A stretch of DNA of 23,362 bases from a virus (IMGVR_UViG_3300014838_000530:1-23362), one strand, 5' to 3'. Counted from the first letter of the stretch, positions 126-23,362 are shown. Program-made: numbers and translations. The notes: generated by a model not told the origin, from the letters alone.

Positions 126-257
126 ATGGCGAACTATAAGCGAAAAGCTGGCTACAAAATGAGGCGGTCTTGCGGTCTATGTAAGCCCTGGAAGCGTATT
201 GGCAACAGTAAGAAATTAGAGAGGAAAAGATGCAAACGACAACGATTGAGCACCTGA
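126..257 (+). CDS. 43-aa basic CxxC phage mini-protein
   Basis: This short gene encodes a very basic protein. It has a CGLC knuckle at residues 16-19 followed by KPWKRIGNSKK and an Arg/Lys-rich tail. Small phage proteins with a Lys/Arg-rich start, one CxxC and a following GN(S/N) segment are common in tailed phages; their function is unknown, and nucleic-acid binding is only an inference. There is no Shine-Dalgarno upstream of the ATG, which lies 6 bases after a -10 element, so a leaderless start is likely. The 3' end overlaps the start of the next gene by 28 bases in another frame. That gene's ribosome binding site (221-224) lies inside this one, which suggests translational coupling. The call rests on composition, the motif and promoter placement, because the gene is too short for coding statistics. 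Confidence 0.55.
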   Translation: MANYKRKAGYKMRRSCGLCKPWKRIGNSKKLERKRCKRQRLST

Positions 258-1210
258 GTTATCCAGTTACTATTTGGGAGCCGCATGAGGCACCAGCATG
301 GGACCACAACCCGACTATCTGTAGGGACGATAAGAACAATGTATGGGTCGGTATACGGCACCATGACTTGCTTCCACTGACCGTACATTTGGACCCCACA
401 AATCCCAATACGCATGAGCCGAGCCGGTTTATGCTGGGGAAACTAGACGTAGCTACCCTAAAGGTTAGCGACTTGAAACTTATTACGCCGGAGATTGGTG
501 GCGACCCGTGCCTCAATAAAGGTATTGAGGACGTGCGGATTTACCACCGATATGACGGGCTGCGTGGTGTCGGGGTTATCTATTCGCCTCATGGCATTAC
601 GCAGGGCGAGTTGGGCATCAATTACGAGACAGGGCATTTTCGGTTGTTGCATGACTACGGCCAGCCGTATAAGCACACTGAGAAAAACTGGTCGCCAGCT
701 AGCACTCTGACTGAGCAGTTTGACTTTATCTACAGCCAGACCCAGGTTATTAAGTACGGGAAACCACGAGGCAAGGAGATTTACCACGGGGAGATTCACG
801 GCGGCTCCCAGCTCCTGCCGTATAAGGATGGCTATATTTCTATCGCCCATCGGGTTAGTCCGATTGTAGGCCTGACGTGGCGCTGGTATGCTAGCGTTGC
901 TCGCCTGCATGACAGCACCGGCAGGGTGACGCACATCAGCCAATTCTTTGATTTCGGGACTGGTTGGCGAGAGAATTTGCAGGAGTCTGTCGAGTACGTG
1001 AGTGGTGCTATATGGCTTGACGAGGGTAAAGAGCTACTGCTTAGCCTCGGTATTAAGGACGAGAAATGCGGCTTTGTGAAGGTACCGGTGAGCGTTTTCA
1101 AATGGGAGAAAGCCGGTGGTTCAGTGAGCAAATTTGAGCTTGATTCGAGTCTCCAAAAGATAGTGAAATCGCATGCTGGCAGTGTGCCGGTTCAAGAAAT
1201 TGTGTTGTAG
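230..1210 (+). CDS. GH130/glycosyltransferase-associated beta-propeller protein (copy A)
   Basis: This 326-aa protein looks like the five-bladed beta-propeller family that includes GH130 mannoside phosphorylases and hydrolases and the propeller domains attached to some glycosyltransferases. Visible signatures are GIEDVR (98-103, matching the EDxR motif that carries the catalytic Asp in GH130), EKNW (151-154), the HGGSQ turn (190-194), AHR (206-208), and a C-terminal VEYVSG...LLLSLGIKD block (254-277) typical of the last blade. It has no signal peptide or membrane segment, so it should act in the cytoplasm. The natural inference is recognition or processing of a mannoside-like glycan or sugar phosphate, but the substrate is unknown. 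The ATG at 230 is supported by GAGG at 221-224. A paralogue (4208-5152, minus strand) shares most of these motifs. The family assignment is fairly firm; enzymatic activity is not. Confidence 0.72.
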   Translation: MQTTTIEHLSYPVTIWEPHEAPAWDHNPTICRDDKNNVWVGIRHHDLLPLTVHLDPTNPNTHEPSRFMLGKLDVATLKVSDLKLITPEIGGDPCLNKGIEDVRIYHRYDGLRGVGVIYSPHGITQGELGINYETGHFRLLHDYGQPYKHTEKNWSPASTLTEQFDFIYSQTQVIKYGKPRGKEIYHGEIHGGSQLLPYKDGYISIAHRVSPIVGLTWRWYASVARLHDSTGRVTHISQFFDFGTGWRENLQESVEYVSGAIWLDEGKELLLSLGIKDEKCGFVKVPVSVFKWEKAGGSVSKFELDSSLQKIVKSHAGSVPVQEIVL

Positions 1211-1230
1211 AATTAACTCATTTCAAGGGT

Positions 1231-1260
1231 CTAGCGTGTTCACAACTTTCCAAACGCTAG
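1231..1260. repeat. Inverted repeat upstream of the helicase promoter
   Basis: CTAGCGT at 1231-1237 is perfectly complementary to ACGCTAG at 1254-1260, with a 16-base spacer. No T-tract follows, so it is not a simple terminator. It ends 8 bases before the -35 box of the helicase promoter. An operator, or an initiator-protein site near an origin, are both possible. Confidence 0.5.
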
Positions 1261-1268
1261 CTGTAGGG

Positions 1269-1298
1269 TTGCCACAATCGGAATTACGAGCTTATAAT
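1269..1298 (+). promoter_or_regulatory. Sigma70-type promoter of the helicase operon
   Basis: TTGCCA (1269-1274), an 18-base spacer and a perfect TATAAT (1293-1298) form a near-consensus promoter. Transcription should start around 1304-1306, leaving only 3-5 bases before the ATG at 1309. No Shine-Dalgarno can be seen between the -10 box and the ATG, so translation probably starts in leaderless fashion. Confidence 0.65.
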
Positions 1299-1308
1299 TT
1301 GAAGTCCA

Positions 1309-2673
1309 ATGGCCTCCACGAAAACGAAAGCTGAAGAAGTTAAAACCCTAGATATTGCTCATATCCTGAAGGAATTTAGGATTGCAAAATTCAAGGGTGC
1401 GCTGGTCTATATGGCTGACAATGGCTACTGGCAACCACTAACCGAGGACTACTTTAGAACCAAAGCTTACGAGATACTGAAAACGCCTATGCGCTCACGG
1501 GTAAATGAGGCGTGGGATTACATGCAATTTGGCACGCCTGACCTCACAAAATACGCTCAATATATCCGCATGGGCAACCTGGTTTGGGACACGAAAGTGG
1601 TCGATTTTACTGGGGATATTGCTGCTGAGGACTGCGTTTATGCGACTAAATATACCCCCCAATTAGAGCCTGAAATGAGTGACTTTGTGCTCGATATTGC
1701 TAAGCGAGATGAGCTGATTTATGCCACTATTATGCAGACAATCGCACCCATATTTTTGGCCTATAAACCAGCTGGTGTTATCTGGTGGAAGGGGGCTGGG
1801 CGCAACGGCAAGACCACGCTAGCGCAGGTGATTTACGACTTGTTCCCAGGCTTTATTGCGAACCTGACTATTAAGCAGATTGAGGACGAGCGTGATGCGC
1901 CGGTGCTGAATGGTAACCTGGCGAACGTGGTGAAGGAGTCGTCTGACGGCTATATTGAGGACTCCAAAGCCTATAAATCCATTGGTACACACGAGGACTT
2001 TCCAGTGCATAAATTCCACTCTCAGCAGAGCGTTCTAATTGACGGTAGTCTGCATCATATATTTAGTGCTAACAATATTCCTACCTTTGCTGACAAGTCA
2101 GATGGTGCTCGTAGGCGTACACTAATTATTCCATTCGAGGCGAAATTTGCCGACGACCCGACCTTCATTGATAAGACATTTACCAAGGACTTTTACGAGC
2201 AGCATTTAGGGCTATTTGTTCAGTGGGCCAAAAGGCTGAAGGAGTGGGATTATCACTACCACTTTGATGACCACACTCAGGAAGTAAAAGAGCGTTATGA
2301 TGTCGGCACTAACAGTGCCACGACCTACCTGGATGAGTTGAACACCCAGTATATTTTCGGCTTCAACAGCTACGGTAATCTGTTTACCGACTACCAGAAT
2401 TGGTGCATCGACAATGGCTATACGGCACTCAGTAACCAGCACCTGCGTCGGGCTACTGAGGATTACGACTTTCATGCTACTACGGTGCGTGGCGAGGAGA
2501 GCCAGCTCATTAAGCGGTACATCAAGAAGCCCTATACCTTTATTGAGCTGGAGCTGATTAGTGGTGGCATGCGGATGGGGCTTTACCGGCAGATAAATGC
2601 GCCGGATGACTATGCCGAGACGGTGCCTGCGAAGTCGAATCTACAGGAGTTTTTAGATGCCATCCCTGACTAA
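1309..2673 (+). CDS. D5/P4-type superfamily 3 helicase (phage replication ATPase)
   Basis: This 454-aa protein matches the helicase half of D5/P4-like primase-helicases, which unwind DNA at phage and plasmid origins as hexamers. A perfect Walker A motif, GAGRNGKTT, lies at residues 162-170. The Walker B region is probably around NVVKESSD (206-213). The motif C/sensor segment FSANNIPTF is followed by GARRRT, which would supply the sensor Asn and arginine finger. The N-terminal part resembles the D5_N region (ADNGYWQPL, residues 36-44). I see no archaeo-eukaryotic primase motifs or zinc finger, so it may be helicase only. It opens an operon and overlaps the next gene by 17 bases. The start follows a consensus promoter without a ribosome binding site. 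Confidence 0.85.
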   Translation: MASTKTKAEEVKTLDIAHILKEFRIAKFKGALVYMADNGYWQPLTEDYFRTKAYEILKTPMRSRVNEAWDYMQFGTPDLTKYAQYIRMGNLVWDTKVVDFTGDIAAEDCVYATKYTPQLEPEMSDFVLDIAKRDELIYATIMQTIAPIFLAYKPAGVIWWKGAGRNGKTTLAQVIYDLFPGFIANLTIKQIEDERDAPVLNGNLANVVKESSDGYIEDSKAYKSIGTHEDFPVHKFHSQQSVLIDGSLHHIFSANNIPTFADKSDGARRRTLIIPFEAKFADDPTFIDKTFTKDFYEQHLGLFVQWAKRLKEWDYHYHFDDHTQEVKERYDVGTNSATTYLDELNTQYIFGFNSYGNLFTDYQNWCIDNGYTALSNQHLRRATEDYDFHATTVRGEESQLIKRYIKKPYTFIELELISGGMRMGLYRQINAPDDYAETVPAKSNLQEFLDAIPD

Positions 2674-3433
2674 ACTACTTGACAAAATGCTTGTGCTCGA
2701 CTACAAAGAGTTCCAGCTGATGAGCGAGAGCGATGGCATAAATGCGGACGCTAAGGTGGTTGCTGCACTGCTGGACAGGTGTTGCCATGCCAAATCTACT
2801 CGTGCCATACACCTGGCATTTGAGCGGTTGGAAGGCGAGCAGCCGATACCGATTCGTTTCGACACTCCGAAGTTCTACACGCGCTACCACAATGCTGAAG
2901 CGCCACGCGAGCTGGTAGCTACCACTGGCATGCCAGACATTGAGGTTGATGATGACCCTCCGGTTACCTCGGACGTTGCAGGCTCTTTGCGTGTTACCTT
3001 AGATGCCCTGCGCCGGAGGCCGAAGTCAGATGTCCAGGCCCTGCTAGCTTACCGTGCAGCCGTTGATAAGAAATTACCGACAGCTGACCTGTCTGTACGC
3101 AAGGTGAGTGTGCGGAAAATTATAGCCGCTAACCTGCTTGTGATTGCCCATGATGGCAACACGAACGCCATAGAGGAAGTCTTTTTACAGATTGAAGGGC
3201 AACTGGAAAAGGTGGTCAAGGTACTTGGTGGTCACGATGTTTATATTGACGATTACCATACCTTAGAGGCTCCCATGAACGCGCACCTGGTAGATGGTGT
3301 TTGGACAGCAGAAAATGAGGCAGTCACCAACATGTGGGTGGCTCGACTAGCCCCCGAATCTCAGCCAGTAATTAACAAGTCGTTTAGTTCCCGATGGGAC
3401 CAAGCGGAGAAGGAGAAAAAAGCTAATGCTTAG
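2657..3433 (+). CDS. Uncharacterised 258-aa protein in the replication operon
   Basis: I do not recognise this protein with confidence. It is a soluble, charged protein. The N-terminal segment with AIHLAFERLEGEQPIPIRFD loosely recalls the end of small phage DNA-binding proteins that carry an 'LxxRxEG+P' pattern (terminase-small-subunit-like or DUF5681-like), but this match is weak. The middle (about 90-180) is helical and basic, with RRRPKSD and VRKVSVRK. The C-terminus ends in a charged helix (WDQAEKEKKANA). The ATG at 2657 has AGGAG at 2645-2649 with 7-base spacing and lies within the end of the helicase gene. The gene overlaps the methyltransferase gene by 8 bases, so the three are probably translationally coupled. 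A role in replication or DNA handling follows from position only. Confidence 0.75.
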   Translation: MPSLTKLLDKMLVLDYKEFQLMSESDGINADAKVVAALLDRCCHAKSTRAIHLAFERLEGEQPIPIRFDTPKFYTRYHNAEAPRELVATTGMPDIEVDDDPPVTSDVAGSLRVTLDALRRRPKSDVQALLAYRAAVDKKLPTADLSVRKVSVRKIIAANLLVIAHDGNTNAIEEVFLQIEGQLEKVVKVLGGHDVYIDDYHTLEAPMNAHLVDGVWTAENEAVTNMWVARLAPESQPVINKSFSSRWDQAEKEKKANA

Positions 3434-3998
3434 TCATGCAGAACGTGCCATCATTTGGCAGAAAAACTATAATAACGGAGACAACCTGCGTTCCTCGATA
3501 ACCTATTTACCTGAAATGCTTAAGCTAATTAAGGCGAAAACGGTTTTTGAGGTGGGCTGCGGCCAGAGCCACGTTTGGGACATCCCAGGCATTGAATATA
3601 TCGGTGCTGACCTCTGTGGTGACCTGATTGACGACAATAAACGGAACCACCCCAAAGTAGCATTTATACGCTTTGATGCGCTTCGCGCCACCATGCCGCA
3701 GAGTGACGTGATAATTTGCAAAGACCTGTTCGACTTCATGCCGAACGCGGAGGTCAGGGCAATATTGCAGAAAATCTACAGCTCCGGCAGCAAATGGCTG
3801 ATTGCCAGCACCAACCCGATGGTGAAAGACAAGCCTAACACCGATGAGGGTGTCTATCGGGCTATTAACCTGCAAGATTTCGGGTGTAAACTGGTAACGC
3901 TTACCCGTAATGACATTGGATTGTTTGAATTAAGCCGGAGGAAATGGCCCAGTGGAGAAGAAGCTACAGAACGAGATAATAAAGTTTCTGCAAAGTAG
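3426..3998 (+). CDS. Class I SAM-dependent methyltransferase
   Basis: The 190-aa protein has a Rossmann-type methyltransferase core. Motif I is VFEVGCGQS (40-48); it is followed by YIGADLCGDL with the acidic residue that binds the SAM ribose, FIRFDA, and DVIICKDLFDFMP in the position of motif IV/post-I. The DPPY/NPPY motif of DNA adenine or N4-cytosine methylases and the PC motif of C5-cytosine methylases are absent. A small molecule, protein or glycan substrate is therefore as likely as DNA. AGGAG at 3411-3415 precedes the ATG. It overlaps both neighbours (8 bases upstream, 47 bases downstream), placing it firmly in the helicase operon. The fold is confident; the substrate is unknown. Confidence 0.8.
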   Translation: MLSHAERAIIWQKNYNNGDNLRSSITYLPEMLKLIKAKTVFEVGCGQSHVWDIPGIEYIGADLCGDLIDDNKRNHPKVAFIRFDALRATMPQSDVIICKDLFDFMPNAEVRAILQKIYSSGSKWLIASTNPMVKDKPNTDEGVYRAINLQDFGCKLVTLTRNDIGLFELSRRKWPSGEEATERDNKVSAK

Positions 3999-4248
3999 AG
4001 GCGCATACGTTCTCAAGAACGATGCCAACTACCGGCAGGGCGTGCCAGACCTTAGTTTTTGGCACCCTGACCTTAATGGCTTCATTGAGGTAAAAGCCAC
4101 TGAAAAATCGCCATTTCGCCCCCTACAGGAGAAAACCTTGCAAAAATTAGAGGAAATGGGCATTTTTGTGCGCGTTATTTACCGAGAGAACTGGCCTGAA
4201 ATGCAGGCTAATTTTGAGCAGTGGATGGAGGATTATAGTAAATCCTGA
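3952..4248 (+). CDS. VRR-NUC domain nuclease
   Basis: This 98-aa stand-alone VRR-NUC protein belongs to the PD-(D/E)xK nuclease superfamily, found in phages as Holliday-junction or flap-processing enzymes. The active-site pattern is clear: GVPDL with Asp33, EVK with Glu46 and Lys48, and the following PLQ with Gln59. Length is typical for phage copies. The GTG start at 3952 is supported by GGAGGA at 3937-3942 (9-base spacing), inside the methyltransferase gene. The last 41 bases overlap the end of the convergent minus-strand propeller gene. With the helicase it probably serves replication or recombination intermediates. Confidence 0.85.
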   Translation: MEKKLQNEIIKFLQSRGAYVLKNDANYRQGVPDLSFWHPDLNGFIEVKATEKSPFRPLQEKTLQKLEEMGIFVRVIYRENWPEMQANFEQWMEDYSKS

Positions 4249-5152
4249 TTGGTTCTTCGCCAGCCTTAAATGGCTCGAATCGCAGGTCAGCAGGGTCAAT
4301 CAGCGATAGGGCGCTCTCGGCATCGCCAATCCCCAAAGACACTAGCAGTTTGCCGTTGCTCTCTACCAACCCTGAGATAAATTCAACGGCGTTGGTGGCG
4401 AGTAGTACGAATCCTTGGCTAATCTCAGTGGCAAAGCCAGCGGAGTTGTATTTAACAGCATAGCTGACGTACTGGCGAACGGTTTTTGGCACCACTACGT
4501 TGGAGCGAAACACGCGGTGCTGGAAGCTAAGCCAGCCATCCTCCCATTTAATAGCTTGAGAGCCGCCATGTAGGATGCCGTGATACTCCGGCTCACCATG
4601 CAATTTACCGTTTTTAAGCACCTGCGTAGGTGAGTAAATGTAGTCGAAAGCATCTGTTGCCACGTCCGGCACTGTCCAGTTCTTCTCGGTGCGCTCAGGG
4701 TATGGCTTGGTAACTAGCTCGGTAAAAAACAGGTCATCGCCGCGCACTTCACCCAGTGCGATATGCACATTAGCCCCATTACGCTCGTACTTATCCATGC
4801 ACACGCCAATGGCGTAGAGCTTATCGTCTCGCACAAATAACCTGGCATCTTCCAGGCCGATATTCTTGATGTACGGGTGTATTTCACCGGCATAGTTGAG
4901 CTTCTTGAGCTTGCTAACCGTAAGCGTCTTTTCATCGACCTCGCCGAGCATAACGTCGGTATGCAGCTTGCCGCCGATTATCACCTGACCCCCACCCTGC
5001 TCACCGAGCGTCCAGGTACTACTGCGGATGCTAATTAAAAGCTTCCCTTTGAACCTGACTAAACTGGGGTTGTAATAGGGCTTTAAGGGGTTGTTGTCGG
5101 GCAAAATAACGGTTTTTGCCGGTAGCATTTCAATAGTCTCTTTCCAAGGCAT
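4208..5152 (-). CDS. GH130/glycosyltransferase-associated beta-propeller protein (copy B)
   Basis: This 314-aa protein is the only gene on the minus strand and a paralogue of copy A. It shares GLEDAR (99-104), TEKNW (155-159), FDYIYSPTQV (169-178), YHGILHGGSQ (190-199), QHR (211-213) and VEFISG...LLVSLGIGD (256-277). It also has the first-blade YNPSLVRFKGKLLISIRSS (27-45), usual for the family and less clear in copy A. No signal peptide is seen. I chose the ATG at 5152 because the upstream 26 residues are hydrophobic, cysteine-containing and unlike the family. Another ATG at 5128 follows GGAAAGAG and is possible. The gene converges on and overlaps the nuclease gene, and is divergent from the gene at 5197. 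Its role probably concerns a host or phage glycan; the substrate is not predictable. Confidence 0.75.
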   Translation of the reverse strand: MPWKETIEMLPAKTVILPDNNPLKPYYNPSLVRFKGKLLISIRSSTWTLGEQGGGQVIIGGKLHTDVMLGEVDEKTLTVSKLKKLNYAGEIHPYIKNIGLEDARLFVRDDKLYAIGVCMDKYERNGANVHIALGEVRGDDLFFTELVTKPYPERTEKNWTVPDVATDAFDYIYSPTQVLKNGKLHGEPEYHGILHGGSQAIKWEDGWLSFQHRVFRSNVVVPKTVRQYVSYAVKYNSAGFATEISQGFVLLATNAVEFISGLVESNGKLLVSLGIGDAESALSLIDPADLRFEPFKAGEEPIRIYYNPPSTAQN

Positions 5153-5180
5153 TGTGCTAACATTAAAACATAACTTTAAT
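5152..5180 (+). promoter_or_regulatory. Possible promoter in the 44-bp divergent gap
   Basis: TTGTGC (5152-5157), a 17-base gap and TTTAAT (5175-5180) form a weak plus-strand promoter for the gene at 5197. On the opposite strand TTTAAT (5167-5162) lies 9 bases before the ATG at 5152, the same spacing as at the portal gene, but no -35 is evident. Both elements are weak. Confidence 0.3.
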
Positions 5181-5183
5181 GGG

Positions 5184-5189
5184 AAAGGA
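5184..5189 (+). promoter_or_regulatory. Ribosome binding site favouring the GTG start at 5197
   Basis: AAAGGA ends 7 bases before GTG 5197. The in-frame ATG at 5179 lies upstream of this site and has no ribosome binding site, so GTG 5197 is the better start. Confidence 0.55.
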
Positions 5190-5196
5190 TAACAAA

Positions 5197-5730
5197 GTGA
5201 ACTCAGAACAGATAGCCAATATTTTGGCATTTTACTCGTACTACCATCCGCAAGACGACATTGACATGATAGCTGATGAGTTCAAGCTTCCAGCTTCGCT
5301 TATCGTAAATGGGCTGTTCTGGGGTGAGGAGCACAAGCTTTTCACGTCTGACCGGCAAAGGGCGTATTGGAAGAACATTACAGTGGTTAAATGCCCTGAA
5401 ATTACGGCTGATTTTGGTAAGGATATCGAGCGCATTAAGGGCATAATGATGGAGACAATTACCAACCTGAACGGTGTAAAAGAGGACATTTTAGAGGAAA
5501 ACTTATTTATCTGGGTAGGTGCTCCGCTGACTATCTCGAAAGTAGCACTGCAACTATTAGTCAGCGAAGGGAAGCTCGCTAAGTATTGGATTCGGGACCT
5601 TAAAGACCCCAAGAGCAAATACCACTACCCAACCCTCCCCGAAAACGTTGATAAGAAGTTCGCTAAGGTGAATTTCAAACACGAGAACAAGAAGGGGAAG
5701 GGTGGAAAAAATGAGCGTAAGAAAACGTGA
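5197..5730 (+). CDS. Uncharacterised 177-aa protein, possible winged-helix
   Basis: I do not recognise the family. From GTG 5197 the protein begins [16 protein letters not shown], and residues 1-50 look like a helical DNA-binding-type domain ([20 protein letters not shown]). A second segment, [20 protein letters not shown] followed by [12 protein letters not shown], resembles a helix-turn-helix with a wing. The C-terminus is Lys/Arg/Gly-rich ([16 protein letters not shown]), consistent with nucleic-acid binding. It is divergent from propeller copy B and overlaps the first HNH gene by 20 bases. A regulatory role for a protein encoded beside a divergent promoter is plausible but is inference. 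An ATG at 5179 would add six residues. Confidence 0.7.
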
Positions 5731-6076
5731 AAAACAGTCTTCTATCTGGGTATGTTGGCGAGACTTAAATCAACGATGCACTAATCCTAATCGTAAAAAC
5801 TATGCCGATTATGGTGGGCGCGGTATTAAGGTATGCGAGAGGTGGAGTAATAGAACTAAGGTGGCAGTCGGTACTAAGCGAAGCCCACACGGGGGAACGC
5901 TATTAGTTTATAGGTCGCAAGGTTACCTGAATTTCTTGGAAGATATGGGTGAGCGGCCAGAGGACTACTCTTTAGACCGTATAGATAATGATGGTGATTA
6001 TACCCCTGAGAATTGCCGGTGGGCTACTCGAAGTGAGCAGAATCTGAATAGGCGGTCATTCAGGAGGAAGTTGTGA
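5711..6076 (+). CDS. HNH endonuclease of the YGGRGI/DRIDNDG family
   Basis: The 121-aa protein belongs to a widespread family of free-standing phage HNH proteins. It has RCTNP, the signature [15 protein letters not shown] (residues 33-47), [20 protein letters not shown], and [15 protein letters not shown] followed by an NRR ending. Compared with usual members, about 20 extra residues appear between ERW and the NFLEDMG segment ([20 protein letters not shown]). Such proteins are homing-type nucleases or nickases. ATG 5711 is preceded by GGTGG at 5701-5705; a GTG at 5702 would add three residues. The gene overlaps its upstream neighbour by 20 bases and the next HNH gene by 4 bases. Confidence 0.85.
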
Positions 6077-6312
6077 GCTTGTACCACAAAGAAAGCGACG
6101 ATGACCCGTTATTCAAAGCCCAGCGCAAAACCTACCTTGGCCGCTTCAAATTCTGTCGAATTTGCGGCGATTTCGTGCCGAGACTTCGACGCTCCATAGA
6201 CCATATCATACCAATGTGGCGCTTTCCTGGCCCCTATTGGGACAATAAAAACTGGCAAATGTTATGTCCAAGGTGCCATACTATGAAAGCCAAAATAGAA
6301 GGACAACCATAG
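6073..6312 (+). CDS. Zinc-binding HNH endonuclease
   Basis: This 79-aa HNH domain protein shows two zinc knuckles, C28-x2-C31 and C65-x2-C68, the catalytic D43-H44 (SIDHIIPM), Asn60 in the NKNWQMLC segment and His69 after the second knuckle. The overall arrangement is a complete minimal beta-beta-alpha-metal nuclease. The GTG start at 6073 is supported by AGGAGG at 6062-6067, and the start overlaps the previous stop by 4 bases (GTGA), indicating coupled translation. Phage HNH proteins of this size can act as homing nucleases or as partners of the terminase in packaging. The terminase is 13 kb away here, so the first seems more likely. Confidence 0.85.
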
Positions 6313-7574: not shown

Positions 7575-10500
7575 ATGGGTCTTTTCTCAGACATAATCTC
7601 AGGCATAGGGAACGGTGTTAGCGACATCTTTGGCGGTGGTGGTGGAGATGATAACAACAATAAGCGCAAGCAACCGCAAGCGCCTACTATTGCTGCGCCT
7701 CAAAATAACCAGTCCTCGGTAAAATTGCCAGCCGTTCTTCAGATGGCTAAAGGTCCTACCCAGCTTCAGCCTATCCATCCAGTGAACATTGGCGCCGCAC
7801 CACAACCGGCTAATCAACCGGCAGCACCAAGTGCTCCACCCACCCCAGCTCAAATTGGGACTACCTCGTATTCTGCTCCGCATACGTCGTTATTCGGCCA
7901 CCTTTTGAACGCGGCTAAAGACACTGGCGAAGTGGTTGCATCTGCGGTCCCAGAAGTTGGGTTAGGTGTTGGTCGAGTCGCTACTGGCTTAGTTCAGGGC
8001 GCAACTCAAATACCGCATCTTGGCACGTCTCTCATCGCAACCGGCACAAAAGCACTCTCTGATACTGGCTTGCCTGGTGCTGGTACTGTTAATCGTGTGG
8101 CTCAAGATGTTAATACTGGCACTAAAGATGCTACTAATTTCGTTGATAAGCCAATTAACGCTGCTAGTCGAGGTATTGACACTGTAGCCAAAGACTACAG
8201 TAATGTTGGCCCACTGGCTGGCATGGGCGAGCAAGATTATAAAGATACTCAAATCCCACTAAATGTTTTGGCTGGGCTATTAACGCTGGGCGGTGGTACG
8301 GCGGCTGAGGCTGCTGGTGATGCTGGCGAGGCTGGTGAAGCAGGCCAGAGTGGTGGGATAGTTAGCAAAATCAGCGATTTCCTCAATAAAGACGTAGCCA
8401 ATCCTGGTAACGATGTCATTTCTAAGGTAGGTAGCGGTGTTCAACACGCTGTTAGCCCTGTAGTTAATGCGCTCAACGCCCCTGTTTCAGCGGTAATTAA
8501 GGGTACAAAGGCACTTGTAGGTGGTAGCGATGCAGCTGATGAGGTTGCTACCGCAGATAAGACACCGGTAGAATCTGGGACAAAAGCACCAGCAGAGCCA
8601 GCAAACGCTCCAGCTGGTGATAAAACTGCTCCTCCGGTTGCGGCTGATGGTGCTTCAGAAACTGGCGTTAAGGCACCTGCCGAACCAGCAGAACCAGCAG
8701 AGCCAGCTGAAACACCTACGACTACTGCACCAACCACTGCTCCTGTTGATTTGCGTACACAAAAAGACTTACAAAGTTCTCTTGACGTGGCTCATAACCT
8801 CTTAGGAGATACCAATCCTTATGACAATGAGAAAAGTGCTCAAGACGTTCTGACTAGGGCAGTGGCTCACCAAGGGCGTAACCAGGAGCTGGGCAAAATC
8901 GTAAATTCCAGGCTGGGCGCTGACCATAGTGAAGCTGAGCAAAGTAATATCTTAGATGCCTTAGAAGGAAAACGGACTCGTGCCTCTCTAAGCGCACATG
9001 AAAAAGAGGGTTTTGACGGTCTAAAGAATAAAGTCTTGAAACCATCCGACACAGTACGAGCTAAAAGCAGTACTGACTATCAGTCGCAAAAAAACTACTT
9101 CCCTCAAACCAGCGAGGGATCGCTTAAAGACGCTGCTCAAGGGGCGAAACGTGGCAAGGGAGTAAACGGTAAGATTAAGACATTTGCTGACTTACTTGAC
9201 CGTCAGTCTCGCTACTCCGAACAGAGTATGGCAGGTAAATTTACTGATGCTAATGGCAAATCTGTTATTGGCGACGCTAGGACGCTAGGATTGATTCGTA
9301 AGGGTGATGGCACTTTCAGAAATACGGCTGGGAAAGTCTATAATTATTCTCGTGCCTCTACTAACGAATTGAAAAATGCTGGAGTCAAGTTAAGGACTCC
9401 TGGTGGCTCTTTGGGGTCTTACCTCCAGGACACGCTTAATCTTAAGACTAAGATGGACGCTGCTGATTCGCTCATTAAAAACGCAGACCGCCTGGGCTTG
9501 CATACTGATGACTTACCTGGCACTACGGCGGTGTCGATAAAGGGGTCAGACGGCGTAGAGCATACCTTTCACACCGATGAACAGACGGCTAAAGCTATCA
9601 ATGACTCACCAGTAATCGGAACTGGCAGAAAAGCTCCCTCTTTGGTCAAAGCTTTTAATAAAGCCACTAGCGGTATTGTTCAGGGCACCGTAATAAACCC
9701 TCTTTCGCATGGGCTGAACCTAGTGGCTAATGCAGCGATTGGTAGTGGTGAAAGAGCCAACGGACTCACAGGGCTTAATGCTCTAGTCCGTTCCGTAAAA
9801 CCGTTGACCGATGAGGAAAAGTTCCATATGCAGGATGACGGGGTGTACTTCCCTTCTTACGGCAAGGATATTGTTAATACTCTCTCTAAATTGACTCACG
9901 GTGTTACTAAGTGGAACGAGAAAGGCGTGGCAGCTATAGATGCTCAAGTACGTGCTGGTATGTATCGGCAGCTTACTAGTGGAGATAAGGCTATAAGCGG
10001 TAAAGAAGCTGCTGACGTTATCAATAGGTGGATGGGCGGCCACGAGGTCTATCACGGGGATAGTCCGCAACTTGGCATGTTCTGGCACTACTTCACGCGG
10101 CAGGCAAAAAACGGTGTTCGCCTGTTTAGCATGGCCGCTACTGGTAAGCCTGGGCCTTTAATCAATGCTGGGATAGCAGCTGGCGTAACTTATGGCGCAG
10201 ACAAGGGAATCCAGGCTGTTACGGGCAATAAGCAGGGCTATATTCACCCTGCCGGTACGCTGGGGCTGCTGAATGATGCACTAGACTCTGGCGAGGATGT
10301 CGCTAAAGGGCAGTATCGAAATGCCGTGAACCCTCTTGTCAGCCATATAAACTCGTTAGTCAGCACTGCCTACGAGCAGCTTTTTGGCAACAATGAGTAT
10401 GGCGACAAATTCAGTTCTTTATCTGGGCCTGGCAATAGTCGTGTCAACAACCTACTTGGCATCACTCCTGAGACTAACTTGCTTGCCAATAATGGCCGGT

Positions 10501-11648
10501 CTGCCGCAGAAAAAGTGCTAAATACCGCTGGCATCTACACGCCCCATGTTGCCGGTGATCAGGCTGTTAGTTCTAAAGCTCCTGGAGCTTCAGTGCTTAA
10601 CGTAAAGAACGCCCAAAACGGTGGTACAAACAGCGTGGCATTTCCTAAAGACTTTACCGGTAAGCAAGAGAACAACGTAGCTAATACGCTGGGCAACAAT
10701 TACACGACTAAATCGGCTGCTTTGCTGGGTACTAAAACCCAACCTCAACAGGTTAAGTACGTGGATGCCGTCAACACGCTTAAGAAGTACGGCATCACTG
10801 ATACGGCTGACGCACAGGCATTTTCTAAGCTCAACAGCAAAGACCAGGGCAGCTACGTTAAGGCGGTGGACGCCCTTAATACGGCTGGTACTACATTTAG
10901 CTCTGATACGCTACAAACCCAGCTAGTCAAGCAGGGTGATACTGCGCTGGCAGCCAGCCTCAATTCTGATATTTCTCCAAAACTTGACCAGGGTGACAAA
11001 AACACGCTTGAGCAGTACTACACGAGGACAAGCTCTAGCGGAAATGTTACGCCCGAAAGTGAGAAATGGCTGCAAAATCCTACCAACGCTACCAATTACT
11101 TCGGTGCGCTCATCAATCAGGCTAAAGCTACTGGCACCCTCACTGCTGAGGACCAAAACGTAGGCGAGACATACGACGGCTCGCTCGATTTGGGTGATTC
11201 TGACGATTCTCTTTACACCAAATACTTAGTGTCCCAGGTCAATAAGCAAAACAATGTGCCCAGCACTACGCAGGCTCTGTACGTTGATACCAGCTATGAC
11301 GATTTCAAAGACCTGGCCGCTGGTCCTCAGCTGACCGCGCTTACTACCTACGCCGAACAATTAGCCGCTGCTGGCGTGCCTAACAAGTATTTCATCGGCT
11401 CAGATGGCACCTCCACAAGTGGTAGCAGCTCAAGTTCCAGCAGTGGCACGAGCCCTTACGATGCTGACGTGGCAGCCGGAATCCCTGACGGCACCGTTTC
11501 TGAGTCATTTGTTAAGCCTACGAGCGATAGCGGCTTGAAATCGGTAAGTGCGGTTGCATTCAAGGGACCTAAATTAGTCAAATATGCACCCGACACGAAG
11601 GCCAACCCATATACTCGTAGCATAAGCGTCAAGAGTGGGGTAAAGTAA
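7575..11648 (+). CDS. Very large putative internal (ejected) virion protein
   Basis: At 1357 aa this is the longest gene in the window. It starts with MGLFSDIISGIGNGVSDIFG plus a poly-Gly/Asp run and a Pro/Ala/Gln linker. Glycine/alanine-rich amphipathic segments occupy about 100-260. An Ala/Gly/Glu repeat (241-258) and PAE repeats (about 367-381) follow. A charged helical central domain (about 390-900) includes KNYFPQ (near 505), NPLSHGLNLVANA (708-720), WNEKGVAAIDAQVRAG (780-795) and FWHYFTRQAKNGVRLF (836-851). These resemble the large polyvalent or LPD38-like proteins of phages. A Ser-rich linker lies at about 1280-1292. No lysozyme or transglycosylase catalytic motif was recognised. AGGAAGGGG (7558-7566) precedes the ATG. 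Delivery into the host at infection, as for T7 gp15/gp16, is inferred from size, composition and position before the tail-tube genes. Confidence 0.8.
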   Translation: MGLFSDIISGIGNGVSDIFGGGGGDDNNNKRKQPQAPTIAAPQNNQSSVKLPAVLQMAKGPTQLQPIHPVNIGAAPQPANQPAAPSAPPTPAQIGTTSYSAPHTSLFGHLLNAAKDTGEVVASAVPEVGLGVGRVATGLVQGATQIPHLGTSLIATGTKALSDTGLPGAGTVNRVAQDVNTGTKDATNFVDKPINAASRGIDTVAKDYSNVGPLAGMGEQDYKDTQIPLNVLAGLLTLGGGTAAEAAGDAGEAGEAGQSGGIVSKISDFLNKDVANPGNDVISKVGSGVQHAVSPVVNALNAPVSAVIKGTKALVGGSDAADEVATADKTPVESGTKAPAEPANAPAGDKTAPPVAADGASETGVKAPAEPAEPAEPAETPTTTAPTTAPVDLRTQKDLQSSLDVAHNLLGDTNPYDNEKSAQDVLTRAVAHQGRNQELGKIVNSRLGADHSEAEQSNILDALEGKRTRASLSAHEKEGFDGLKNKVLKPSDTVRAKSSTDYQSQKNYFPQTSEGSLKDAAQGAKRGKGVNGKIKTFADLLDRQSRYSEQSMAGKFTDANGKSVIGDARTLGLIRKGDGTFRNTAGKVYNYSRASTNELKNAGVKLRTPGGSLGSYLQDTLNLKTKMDAADSLIKNADRLGLHTDDLPGTTAVSIKGSDGVEHTFHTDEQTAKAINDSPVIGTGRKAPSLVKAFNKATSGIVQGTVINPLSHGLNLVANAAIGSGERANGLTGLNALVRSVKPLTDEEKFHMQDDGVYFPSYGKDIVNTLSKLTHGVTKWNEKGVAAIDAQVRAGMYRQLTSGDKAISGKEAADVINRWMGGHEVYHGDSPQLGMFWHYFTRQAKNGVRLFSMAATGKPGPLINAGIAAGVTYGADKGIQAVTGNKQGYIHPAGTLGLLNDALDSGEDVAKGQYRNAVNPLVSHINSLVSTAYEQLFGNNEYGDKFSSLSGPGNSRVNNLLGITPETNLLANNGRSAAEKVLNTAGIYTPHVAGDQAVSSKAPGASVLNVKNAQNGGTNSVAFPKDFTGKQENNVANTLGNNYTTKSAALLGTKTQPQQVKYVDAVNTLKKYGITDTADAQAFSKLNSKDQGSYVKAVDALNTAGTTFSSDTLQTQLVKQGDTALAASLNSDISPKLDQGDKNTLEQYYTRTSSSGNVTPESEKWLQNPTNATNYFGALINQAKATGTLTAEDQNVGETYDGSLDLGDSDDSLYTKYLVSQVNKQNNVPSTTQALYVDTSYDDFKDLAAGPQLTALTTYAEQLAAAGVPNKYFIGSDGTSTSGSSSSSSSGTSPYDADVAAGIPDGTVSESFVKPTSDSGLKSVSAVAFKGPKLVKYAPDTKANPYTRSISVKSGVK

Positions 11649-11653
11649 TAGAC

Positions 11654-12064
11654 ATGACTGAACGACAAATAAAAATGGCCGAGCGTAAGGCGAAGGCAAT
11701 CGACTTGTTAGGTGGTGTTTGTGCTCGTTGTGGCTCTGAAGAGCGGCTTGAGTTTGACCACGTAGACAATGACAGGGAGAATTACAGACATACTTTAAGC
11801 AATATGTGGGACTGTGCATGGGATAAGATAGTGGCTGAGCTAGAGCGGTGCCAATTACTATGTCGGCATTGCCATGCTGTAAAGAGTCAGATTGATAGGG
11901 GTGGTTTGCCTAGTAGTGTGGTGGTACATGGAACCTCTAATGCTTATAATAATAGGTCGTGTCGATGTGGAGCTTGCAAAAAAGCATGGGCCGACTACAA
12001 GATAGCTCAGTGGCGTGATAAAAATCCATTGGCTTCTCGGCGTGGTAGGAGGGTGACAGCTTGA
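11654..12064 (+). CDS. HNH endonuclease with C-terminal HGT/CRC zinc module
   Basis: The 136-aa protein has an HNH core: C23-x2-C26, D35-H36 (EFDHVDND) and C70-x2-C73 with His74. A second module follows: VVHGTSNAYNNRSCRCGACK, the pattern often seen as 'HGT...Y..GCRC..C' in phage and mycobacteriophage HNH-associated proteins, likely another zinc or DNA-binding unit. It sits between the internal virion protein and the tail adaptor, suggesting a free-standing homing endonuclease. Its end overlaps the next start by 4 bases (TTGA), so it has been fitted without breaking the operon. Its own ribosome binding site is weak (GGGG at 11637-11640, 13 bases away). Confidence 0.85.
   Translation: MTERQIKMAERKAKAIDLLGGVCARCGSEERLEFDHVDNDRENYRHTLSNMWDCAWDKIVAELERCQLLCRHCHAVKSQIDRGGLPSSVVVHGTSNAYNNRSCRCGACKKAWADYKIAQWRDKNPLASRRGRRVTA
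12047..12053 (+). promoter_or_regulatory. Strong ribosome binding site for a TTG start
   Basis: AGGAGGG lies 7 bases before TTG 12061 and decides the start of the tail adaptor gene, which has no suitable ATG or GTG nearby in that frame. Confidence 0.7.
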
Positions 12065-16776: not shown

Positions 16777-17073
16777 ATGAATGACAACGACGACGAGACA
16801 CTAGATTATATATCTTCGGTAGACCCTTTCACACCCGAAAAGGAACCGGCATCTATAGATGCGCCTGACCAAAAAGCACTTGAGAAGGTAGCTAGAACGT
16901 TAGTTGAGGAGAGGGAAGCTTATACCACTATTGGTGGTATGAAGCGCTTTGATAAGAAGTTTGATGCTGACCAGCGCGAGGCTATGTGTGATGAGATGGT
17001 TAAGTTGATAACCACTTTAGAGGGTAAAGTTAATTCAGCTATAGGTAATGTAAAGGAGAAGCAACGAAGATGA
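16777..17073 (+). CDS. Small acidic protein between portal and scaffold
   Basis: This 98-aa protein is not recognised. It is acidic at the N-terminus (MNDNDDETLDYISSVDPF) and helical and charged afterwards (DQREAMCDEMVKLITTLEGK), with one cysteine. It follows a strong promoter and ends with an ATGA overlap into an HNH gene. Small helical proteins at this position of phage operons may be head-assembly or packaging accessory factors, but nothing in the sequence proves this. Confidence 0.65.
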   Translation: MNDNDDETLDYISSVDPFTPEKEPASIDAPDQKALEKVARTLVEEREAYTTIGGMKRFDKKFDADQREAMCDEMVKLITTLEGKVNSAIGNVKEKQRR

Positions 17074-17429
17074 CGTATAGAGGAATACACCAATGGGTAG
17101 AGCGTTATTTGGGTAAGCCTCAGATTTGTTCTGAGTGTGATGTTACTGATAAAAAGCGTTACCACTGGGCAAACCTTAGCGGTGAATATCGGCAAGATGT
17201 TTCAGATTGGGTGCGCTTGTGTGTGCCGTGTCACAAACGCTATGACTTGAACCGTTTAGGGGGTCAAAATAAACATAGTTTCGTATTAGCAGCCTGCAAA
17301 AAAGGCCATCCATTTAGCGACGGTAATACTCGTTGGCGTACTAGGGGTACTAATAAGTGGAGAGTATGTCTCACCTGCCAGAGAGAATATTTTAAGAATT
17401 ATTTAAGCAGACAGAAAGTGGAGGCATAA
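17070..17429 (+). CDS. HNH-like endonuclease with C-terminal zinc ribbon
   Basis: The 119-aa protein contains C20-x2-C23, then YHWANLSGEYRQDVSDWVRLC with C51-x2-C54 and His55 (CHKRYD). This 'HxANxSGxYxxDxxDWxxLCxxCHxxYD' arrangement is a known phage HNH-like family in which the first His/Asp of the classical DH pair is altered, so activity is uncertain. A second zinc module follows (CKKGHPFSDGNT... with VCLTCQREYFKNY), a pattern seen alone or fused to HNH domains in actinophage-type sequences. The gene overlaps its upstream neighbour by 4 bases. AAAGGAGA at 17052-17060 acts as ribosome binding site. It ends just before the scaffold gene. Confidence 0.8.
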   Translation: MTYRGIHQWVERYLGKPQICSECDVTDKKRYHWANLSGEYRQDVSDWVRLCVPCHKRYDLNRLGGQNKHSFVLAACKKGHPFSDGNTRWRTRGTNKWRVCLTCQREYFKNYLSRQKVEA

Positions 17430-21779: not shown

Positions 21780-23362
21780 ATGCAAAATTCAGCAACCATA
21801 AACACCGTAGTTACCGAGGGTGGTACCATCAACACCACCGTTGAGACTGGTTCGACTATCTCCTCCACCATCACGGGTGGTGGCATCGGTCCAGCTGGTC
21901 CAGTCGGTCCTATCGGTCCAGTCGGTCCACAGGGTCCACCTGGTACATTTGAGCCGTACTACAATGTCAAGGACTATGGAGCTACTGGCAACGGCACGAC
22001 AGATGACACCTATGCTATTCAAGCCGCTATTTCGGCAGCAGTCGATGGCGGTACAGTCTTTTTCCCTGCCGGTACTTATAAAACCACTGCAACTCTAACT
22101 CTCGCTGCTGGGGTGTCGATGCTGGGCGTAGGCACCACTGCTTCAGTTGTTGCCCTGGCTACGGAAAATGTCGATATTGTTTCCTTCCTTAACAGCGGTA
22201 ATGTCAGTGCTTCTATGAGTATTAGCGAGATGGGCTTTGCCGGTCCTGCTGCCGGTACTGGCGATGGCATCCACATGACAGGTGCCGCGTTAGCTTATAT
22301 CTCAATCCGAGACGTAGCCATTCAAAACGCTGGTCAGACCGGACTTCACCTTGGCGGCCCAATCGTATCGACTATCGAACGGGTTACCTCAACAACCAAC
22401 GGACTGCATGGTTTCTGGATTGACGGTACAAGCTCGTTCGTGACATCGGTCACTATGACAAACTGCTATGGTAACGATAACCAGGCTGCTGGCTACCTGA
22501 TTTACAAGGCTACCTACTGTTCGATGGAAGGCTGTGCTGCTGACAGCAACGGCATCGGCTACTACCTGTTCGACGTAGTAGGCTTCTCGGCTAATGGCTG
22601 TGGTACTGAGGCTTCTCAATCTCATGGTGTATCAGGCTACCCAGGCATTGGCTGGAAAATCTACGGTGACAACATTTTTGCTTGTGACAACATCGTGCTA
22701 GTCGGCTGTTTTGTTTATGACGTACACAATATTGCCTACCTTATCACCGGTTACGCTTACGCAATCAGCATGATTGGCTGCCTCGATAGCACCCCTCACT
22801 CCGGCGCAAGTTACTCATTAGAAGTGGACGCTAATGCTTCCATGAGCTACATGGGCTGCCGTTTCTATAACTCGCTTTTGCTTACCGGCACAACTGCCGA
22901 CCTCGCAGATGCTAGTAACCAGAACAGCACACTGAACACCGTTACTGTCGGTACTATAATCGCAACCGACACTCCTAAGTCACTGGCTACCAGTGGCGGC
23001 AACATCTTAATGACTTCTTTGGGGGGCATCAACTATATCGAGTCAGTCGGCGCAGATAATACTGGCGGCGCTAACCTTATCATTGGTAGCCAATATGTCG
23101 GTGTAGAGTTCGTATCATTCAATGGTACAACTGGTAAGGCTAGTTTCCCTAGCGGAGTTGGTGTGCTCAATGGCATCACCACAGATACCCTGAGCGCTAC
23201 CGGCCTAGTCTCAGCTACCGACGGCTTAAGTGTCACTGCCGGGCTAACGGTTGTTAGCGGAGGCGCTACAATTACCGCTGGCGGTCTGCTCATTTCGGCT
23301 GGCGGTTTGACCGTCAACGCGGGGACAACTTACCTATCGACTACTAATATCTATGGCAACCT
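21780..23362 (+). CDS. Tailspike with collagen-like stalk and pectate-lyase fold (partial)
   Basis: An open frame from ATG 21780 runs off the end of the window; 527 codons are visible. Residues 1-36 are Thr/Gly-rich. Six Gly-Pro-X repeats form a collagen-like stalk (37-55). Then NVKDYGATGNGTTDDTYAIQ (62-81) with GGTVFFPAGTY (90-100) is the signature opening of the Pectate_lyase_3 right-handed beta-helix of phage tailspikes. Repeating strands with Asn/Gly/Cys turns continue to about residue 390, and the visible end is made of Gly/Val repeats (GLSVTAGLTVVSGGATITAG). Such proteins bind and cut host surface polysaccharides. There is no obvious Shine-Dalgarno; the ATG is 2 bases after the preceding stop, so coupling is likely. 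Confidence 0.85.
   Translation, partial: MQNSATINTVVTEGGTINTTVETGSTISSTITGGGIGPAGPVGPIGPVGPQGPPGTFEPYYNVKDYGATGNGTTDDTYAIQAAISAAVDGGTVFFPAGTYKTTATLTLAAGVSMLGVGTTASVVALATENVDIVSFLNSGNVSASMSISEMGFAGPAAGTGDGIHMTGAALAYISIRDVAIQNAGQTGLHLGGPIVSTIERVTSTTNGLHGFWIDGTSSFVTSVTMTNCYGNDNQAAGYLIYKATYCSMEGCAADSNGIGYYLFDVVGFSANGCGTEASQSHGVSGYPGIGWKIYGDNIFACDNIVLVGCFVYDVHNIAYLITGYAYAISMIGCLDSTPHSGASYSLEVDANASMSYMGCRFYNSLLLTGTTADLADASNQNSTLNTVTVGTIIATDTPKSLATSGGNILMTSLGGINYIESVGADNTGGANLIIGSQYVGVEFVSFNGTTGKASFPSGVGVLNGITTDTLSATGLVSATDGLSVTAGLTVVSGGATITAGGLLISAGGLTVNAGTTYLSTTNIYGN

Follow-up and report, generated by a model that had tools for sequence, protein, structure and literature searches.

Why does a phage carry two diverged beta-propeller genes, one on each side of its replication genes, and what do their products do? 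The stretch analysed here (the window) is a virus record of 23,362 bases, a 23 kb fragment with terminase, portal, major capsid-like and tail genes. On the forward strand, propA (230-1210, 326 aa) is followed by a DUF5906/D5-like primase-helicase (hel, 1309-2673; PF19263, 1.5e-7; phrog_864 DNA primase, 2.8e-41), gene 3 of unknown product (g3, 2657-3433), a class I methyltransferase (MT, 3426-3998; phrog_3382, 5e-15; PF13649, 5.5e-4) and a VRR-NUC nuclease (3952-4248; PF08774, 9e-7). On the reverse strand, propB (4208-5152, 314 aa) converges on VRR-NUC, their 3' ends overlapping by 41 bp, and is divergent from the forward-strand g7 (5179-5730, unknown product), which lies 26 bp from the propB start and marks the conserved insertion site of propB. 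No promoters or terminators exceeding the shuffled background were found.

This ORF layout agrees with the preliminary description, which had placed two homologous propellers of 326 and about 314 aa around the helicase/methyltransferase/VRR-NUC genes in opposite orientations. Both ORFs are intact, and propB is a diverged paralogue of propA (BLASTP: 35% identity over 241 aa, 113 bits, E=1e-33). The motifs listed earlier (EDxR, TEKNW, FDxIYSxTQV, YHGxxHGGSQ, HR and SLGIxD) were all found in the two proteins and, as also proposed, no signal peptide is evident in either. A signal-peptide-like extension of propB by 26 codons upstream (to 5230) was rejected since it is not conserved among the relatives, and the start at 5152 is correct.

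Searches with Pfam, PHROGs, NCBIfam and PADLOC gave no useful family match for propA or propB, and neither reached the PF04041 (GH130) gathering cut-off; in distant phage relatives, PF04041 matches are weak, repeated and sub-threshold (best 1.3e-4). Single-sequence phmmer searches of the PDB with both proteins returned no match, and the GT108 entries had no sequence match by phmmer or profile. A first profile against the PDB gave only chance matches to immunoglobulins, and a related profile recovered a beta-1,2-mannobiose phosphorylase (7fip) at 9e-4. Profile alignment by hhalign with genuine GH130 proteins from Chloroflexota extended over the full length (E=3.6e-4; 8e-6 for a related set).

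Structure prediction supports the GH130-like propeller fold suggested initially. AlphaFold2 models built on an alignment of 20 phage homologues (propA, pLDDT 84.7 and pTM 0.87; propB, pLDDT 84.2 and pTM 0.86) are five-bladed propellers matching the solved members, and in Foldseek their good PDB matches are almost exclusively GT108 and GH130 (about 1e-8 to 1e-9, prob 1.00, TM 0.56-0.62), which for these predicted models is likeness at superfamily level, not family. For propB, GT108 proteins of Leishmania come first (6q50, 6q4z and 6q4x, E about 3e-9) with GH130 next, whereas propA has GH130 first (9gph, 2.5e-9) and GT108 (6q50) at 1.7e-6. Fold scores therefore do not separate a transferase from a phosphorylase, propB leaning to GT108 and propA to GH130. 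Among the BFVD neighbours are proteins of giant viruses, some of which carry the annotation fucosyltransferase, LicD or pyruvyl transferase; with the propeller-GT2 fusions of a Chloroflexi MAG (L044 and L046), they support the kinship with glycosyltransferase-fused propellers that had been put forward. Both proteins belong to a branch of this beta-mannoside propeller superfamily (GH130/GT108) that occurs in phages and had gone unrecognised.

The pocket of the superfamily is kept as well. In BT3780, the -1/+1 sites include Asn74, Arg89, Glu141, Asp142 and Asp363, Asp142 being the candidate acid (PMC4599007). The corresponding residues of propB, by the 20-homologue alignment and hhalign columns, are N28, R43, E101-D102 and D277, of which N28 and E101-D102 are invariant and D277 is conserved in at least 90% of the 20 phage homologues. 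The elements N-P, R, E-D, EKNW, H, Y and G..D vary little or not at all across the same proteins. All 20 have a His or Arg ahead of the GG motif, and the later His of YHG is invariant. The EDxR pocket, on which catalysis had been suggested to depend, is retained through its Asn, Arg, Glu-Asp and distal Asp.

No close cultured relative of the phage that could indicate its host was found. The same layout, propA-hel-g3-MT-VRR with propB on the opposite strand and g7, is present in 3 IMG/VR contigs (L001-L003, records G001-G003). Orthologues of propA have 59-71% identity (L001-L004), while those of propB have 60-70% (L001-L003) and 61% in G222; the L004 contig ends after propA-hel, and that of G222 ends inside propB, which occupies the same site adjoining g7. 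In the comparison of L002 with L003, propA has a dN/dS of about 0.06 and propB one of about 0.05, indicating strong purifying selection, so both genes are maintained by selection. In the tree, propA clusters with the single propeller of three other phage genomes (G005, G006 and G017) and not with propB (support 99/96). The paralogy is therefore old, and a recent tandem duplication as the origin of the pair is ruled out. Profile searches of genome contigs gave no match with A1 and one Chloroflexi MAG with A3; in 200 other genomes of the phylum of this MAG, the propeller family is absent at E<=1e-10. The family spans uncultured phages, cyanophages and, by structure, giant viruses.

Some other genes of the window and its relatives deserve a record. 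Many small HNH-type endonuclease-like ORFs occur in the window (5702-6312, 11654-12064 and 17070-17429) and in L037 and L038, between structural and replication genes and at differing places in each phage, like free-standing homing genes. An ORF of 1357 aa (7575-11648) has no Pfam or PHROG match and a length poorly conserved among relatives; it is possibly an ejected internal virion protein. In G003, a close relative of the window, adjacent genes (L037:6809-7347) encode an Acb2/Tad1-hairpin protein (PF24729, 7e-7) and a Tad2-like protein (PF11195, 8e-21), both being homologous to sponges that counter Thoeris/CBASS defence.

Glycan genes recur around the propeller homologues in a consistent pattern. 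In G001, the gene of a dehydratase-like SDR overlaps propA by ATGA (PF16363, 2e-55; best NCBIfam match gmd, 6e-33), its product falling below the gmd equivalog cut-off, so that it could act on another nucleotide sugar. G003 also has a dehydratase, whose best match is the GDP-mannose 4,6-dehydratase TIGR01472 (2e-101, below the curated cut-off) and which exceeds the cut-off of PF16363 (2e-98). These two genes favour a sugar-nucleotide connection; on the other side, G002 has the propellers and no recognised glycosyltransferase or GDP-mannose dehydratase. Elsewhere, a polysaccharide pyruvyltransferase is flanked by two propellers (G008; PF04230, 1e-9), a PHROG 'glycosyltransferase' lies nearby (G014; 2.5e-33), and the propeller is fused with FkbM and a second methyltransferase (G015) or two propellers with a methyltransferase (G016).

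Virion genes are the other frequent neighbours. Fibre or other virion genes adjoin propeller homologues in L014, L015, L022, L023, L018, L019, L027 and L028, and in the phage DSL-LC02, FkbM proteins adjoin the propeller amid tail-fibre genes. A GT4 gene of G001 (PF00534, 2e-14) is located between tail-fibre genes, near a collagen-like fibre protein. The window itself ends in a forward-strand tail protein gene (21780-23360), cut by the contig end, whose product combines a short stretch resembling collagen with a domain like that of pectate lyases (PF12708, 1.3e-15); its collagen-like homologue in G001 adjoins this GT4 gene. Against a link with the tail, propA and propB are not beside tail genes in the window clade.

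Two long ORFs were observed at such loci. In DSL-LC02, a fusion of FkbM methyltransferase, radical SAM and SPASM (L018:7875-10028) directly follows the propeller, beside tail fibres. The two-propeller/methyltransferase ORF of G016 (L028:4485-7697) encodes 1070 aa and has as neighbours a GT2-TPR gene and one that is tailspike-like.

We give roughly an even chance to the reading that propA and propB are GT108-like transferases using GDP-mannose-type donors and most likely decorating phage tail fibres. Computation established the homology, the fold, the conserved pocket, the selection, the conserved layout and the recurring company of glycan genes, whereas the transferase direction, the donor, the acceptor and the division of labour between the paralogues are inferred. 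GT108 provides the analogy for inverting transfer from a GDP-mannose-type donor (PMC8950772). In this reading, the two proteins would be cytoplasmic inverting glycosyltransferases, the central pocket of each propeller binding a GDP-activated mannose-type sugar (mannose or 6-deoxymannose) and the invariant Glu-Asp motif contributing its Asp to a proton relay. The sugar would extend a growing glycan through a beta-linkage, and propA and propB probably make successive or different linkages. The carrier of this glycan is most likely a structural protein of the phage, for instance a tail fibre. A tail component is the likeliest acceptor since propeller homologues adjoin fibre and virion genes and a GT4 lies in the fibre operon of G001; in the window, the tail protein at 21780-23360 could be a candidate. 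The complete scenario, with two stand-alone GT108-like propellers supplied by a phage GDP-deoxymannose enzyme and equipping the tail fibres of the same phage with a beta-linked glycan, is tentative.

The same neighbours can be read differently. Genes for GT2, GT4, pyruvyltransferase and FkbM are typical of envelope glycan pathways, and propB resembles a separately expressed inserted gene, being on the opposite strand with overlapping ends. Both features would suit the transfer of sugar onto a host surface glycan or lipid-linked precursor, altering the receptor during infection (superinfection exclusion). However, propeller homologues adjoin tail-fibre genes, and no membrane-anchored glycosyltransferase or flippase was recognised in G001-G003. 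The failure to find a tyrosine integrase (PF00589) makes a role in lysogenic conversion less likely, and this variant was set aside. We consider modification of the host surface rather unlikely.

Could the propellers break down glycans, as their GH130 kinship might suggest? Degradative enzymes (phosphorylases or mannosidases) would break down a beta-mannoside in the host cytoplasm or trim a glycan of the host, so that sugar phosphate is released or a receptor sugar is lost. In favour of this, the best solved neighbours of propA are GH130 phosphorylases, and the propellers keep the pocket residues that GH130 members share. In GH130 phosphorylases, three basic residues act on the phosphate, while hydrolases have Glu instead (PMC4599007). 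Of these basic positions, the propellers keep the His of YHG and a His or Arg ahead of GG in all 20 homologues, while the phosphate-site Arg of the GH130 'HR' appears, by hand alignment, to be replaced by Tyr-Ser; the Glu pair that takes the place of the basic residues in GH130_NC has no conserved Glu counterpart in alignment A5, with positions again assigned by hand. Moreover, neighbours and fusion partners are synthetic (GT2, GT4, GDP-mannose dehydratase, FkbM and pyruvyltransferase) rather than catabolic. A degradative role is unlikely, and this phage branch probably makes a glycan rather than breaking one.

The position beside the replication genes, which had suggested a common system, does not hold across relatives. 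In a 38 kb relative (G225), hel, g3, VRR and a truncated relative of the methyltransferase are present without any propeller. In G005, G006 and G017, hel-g3-VRR is at one place and the propeller is more than 11 kb off, where an FkbM methyltransferase adjoins it and a g7-like gene diverges from it, which equals the propB site. Across relatives, g3 accompanies the helicase and VRR-NUC. The survey of related phages revealed no conserved linkage of the propellers with hel-g3-VRR; their place beside the helicase is a trait of one clade, and a functional tie to the helicase/methyltransferase/VRR-NUC genes is unsupported. The primase-helicase is judged a neighbour, outside the propeller function. We also rejected the window methyltransferase as a propeller partner, since its truncated relative in G225 (L072:4943-5329) lacks the N-terminal SAM-binding part and still persists between g3 and VRR-NUC without propellers; nor has the window enzyme detectable homology with the methyltransferase part of the two-propeller fusion in L028. 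The locus was ranked in the preliminary description as its best candidate for an undescribed system, which stands for the propellers themselves and falls for a system including the replication genes.

The same separation weighs against glycosylation of modified phage DNA as a means of evading host nucleases. This idea draws on the adjoining primase-helicase, methyltransferase and VRR-NUC and on propellers near an Fpg/Nei glycosylase and ribonucleotide reductase in DSL-LC01 and G013, but no homologue of a base hydroxymethylase, TET/JBP or thymidylate synthase was found in the scanned ORFs of G001-G003 (E<=1e-4), and we regard it as very unlikely. Activity is known for none of this propeller branch, as would fit sugar-binding propellers without catalysis, such as structural or decoy proteins, although pocket residues invariant in 20 diverse homologues and strong selection make this highly improbable.

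If the complete scenario on tail fibres is real, these would be the first GT108-type transferases at work in a virus of bacteria; our literature search found no paper on GH130/GT108 propellers of phages. The pair would define a phage enzyme family missed by current profile libraries and give the poorly understood propeller-glycosyltransferase fusions a role, open to testing, in decorating viruses with glycans. Since beta-mannosyl linkages are difficult to make, new GT108-like enzymes would be of practical value.

Among known systems, the single-domain propellers of the phages DSL-LC01, DSL-LC02 and S-SCSM2R are homologous and were annotated by similarity as 'beta-mannosyltransferase' or 'MGP protein', with only 21-28% identity to propB (E 1e-17 to 1e-4). 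The GH130/PF04041 beta-mannoside phosphorylases and mannosidases share the fold, a full-length profile alignment and the Asn, Arg, Glu-Asp and distal Asp, but their phosphate-site Arg and hydrolase Glu pair seem to be missing from the window proteins, whose neighbourhood is synthetic, not catabolic. The GT108 proteins MPT-1, MPT-2 and MPT-4 of Leishmania (6q4w, 6q4x and 6q50) are five-bladed propellers like propA and propB, MPT-1 and MPT-2 being GDP-Man-dependent mannosyltransferases according to the PDB title; the catalytic Asp of GT108, inactive as the D94N variant (6q4z), and the mannose configuration extend the comparison. GT108 is the best structural match of propB only, and the window proteins differ in having about 15% identity to it, in being phage-encoded and in lacking a mannogen context. 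The nearest predicted structures are the glycosyltransferase-fused propellers of giant viruses and bacteria (among them A0A481ZE78 and A0A3G5AFP7, and L044 and L046 of Chloroflexi), with TM up to 0.76 and 17-23% identity; L044 and L046 have the same EKNW, GGS/GGA and G..D motifs as the window proteins, which, unlike these fusions, stand alone and come as a pair.
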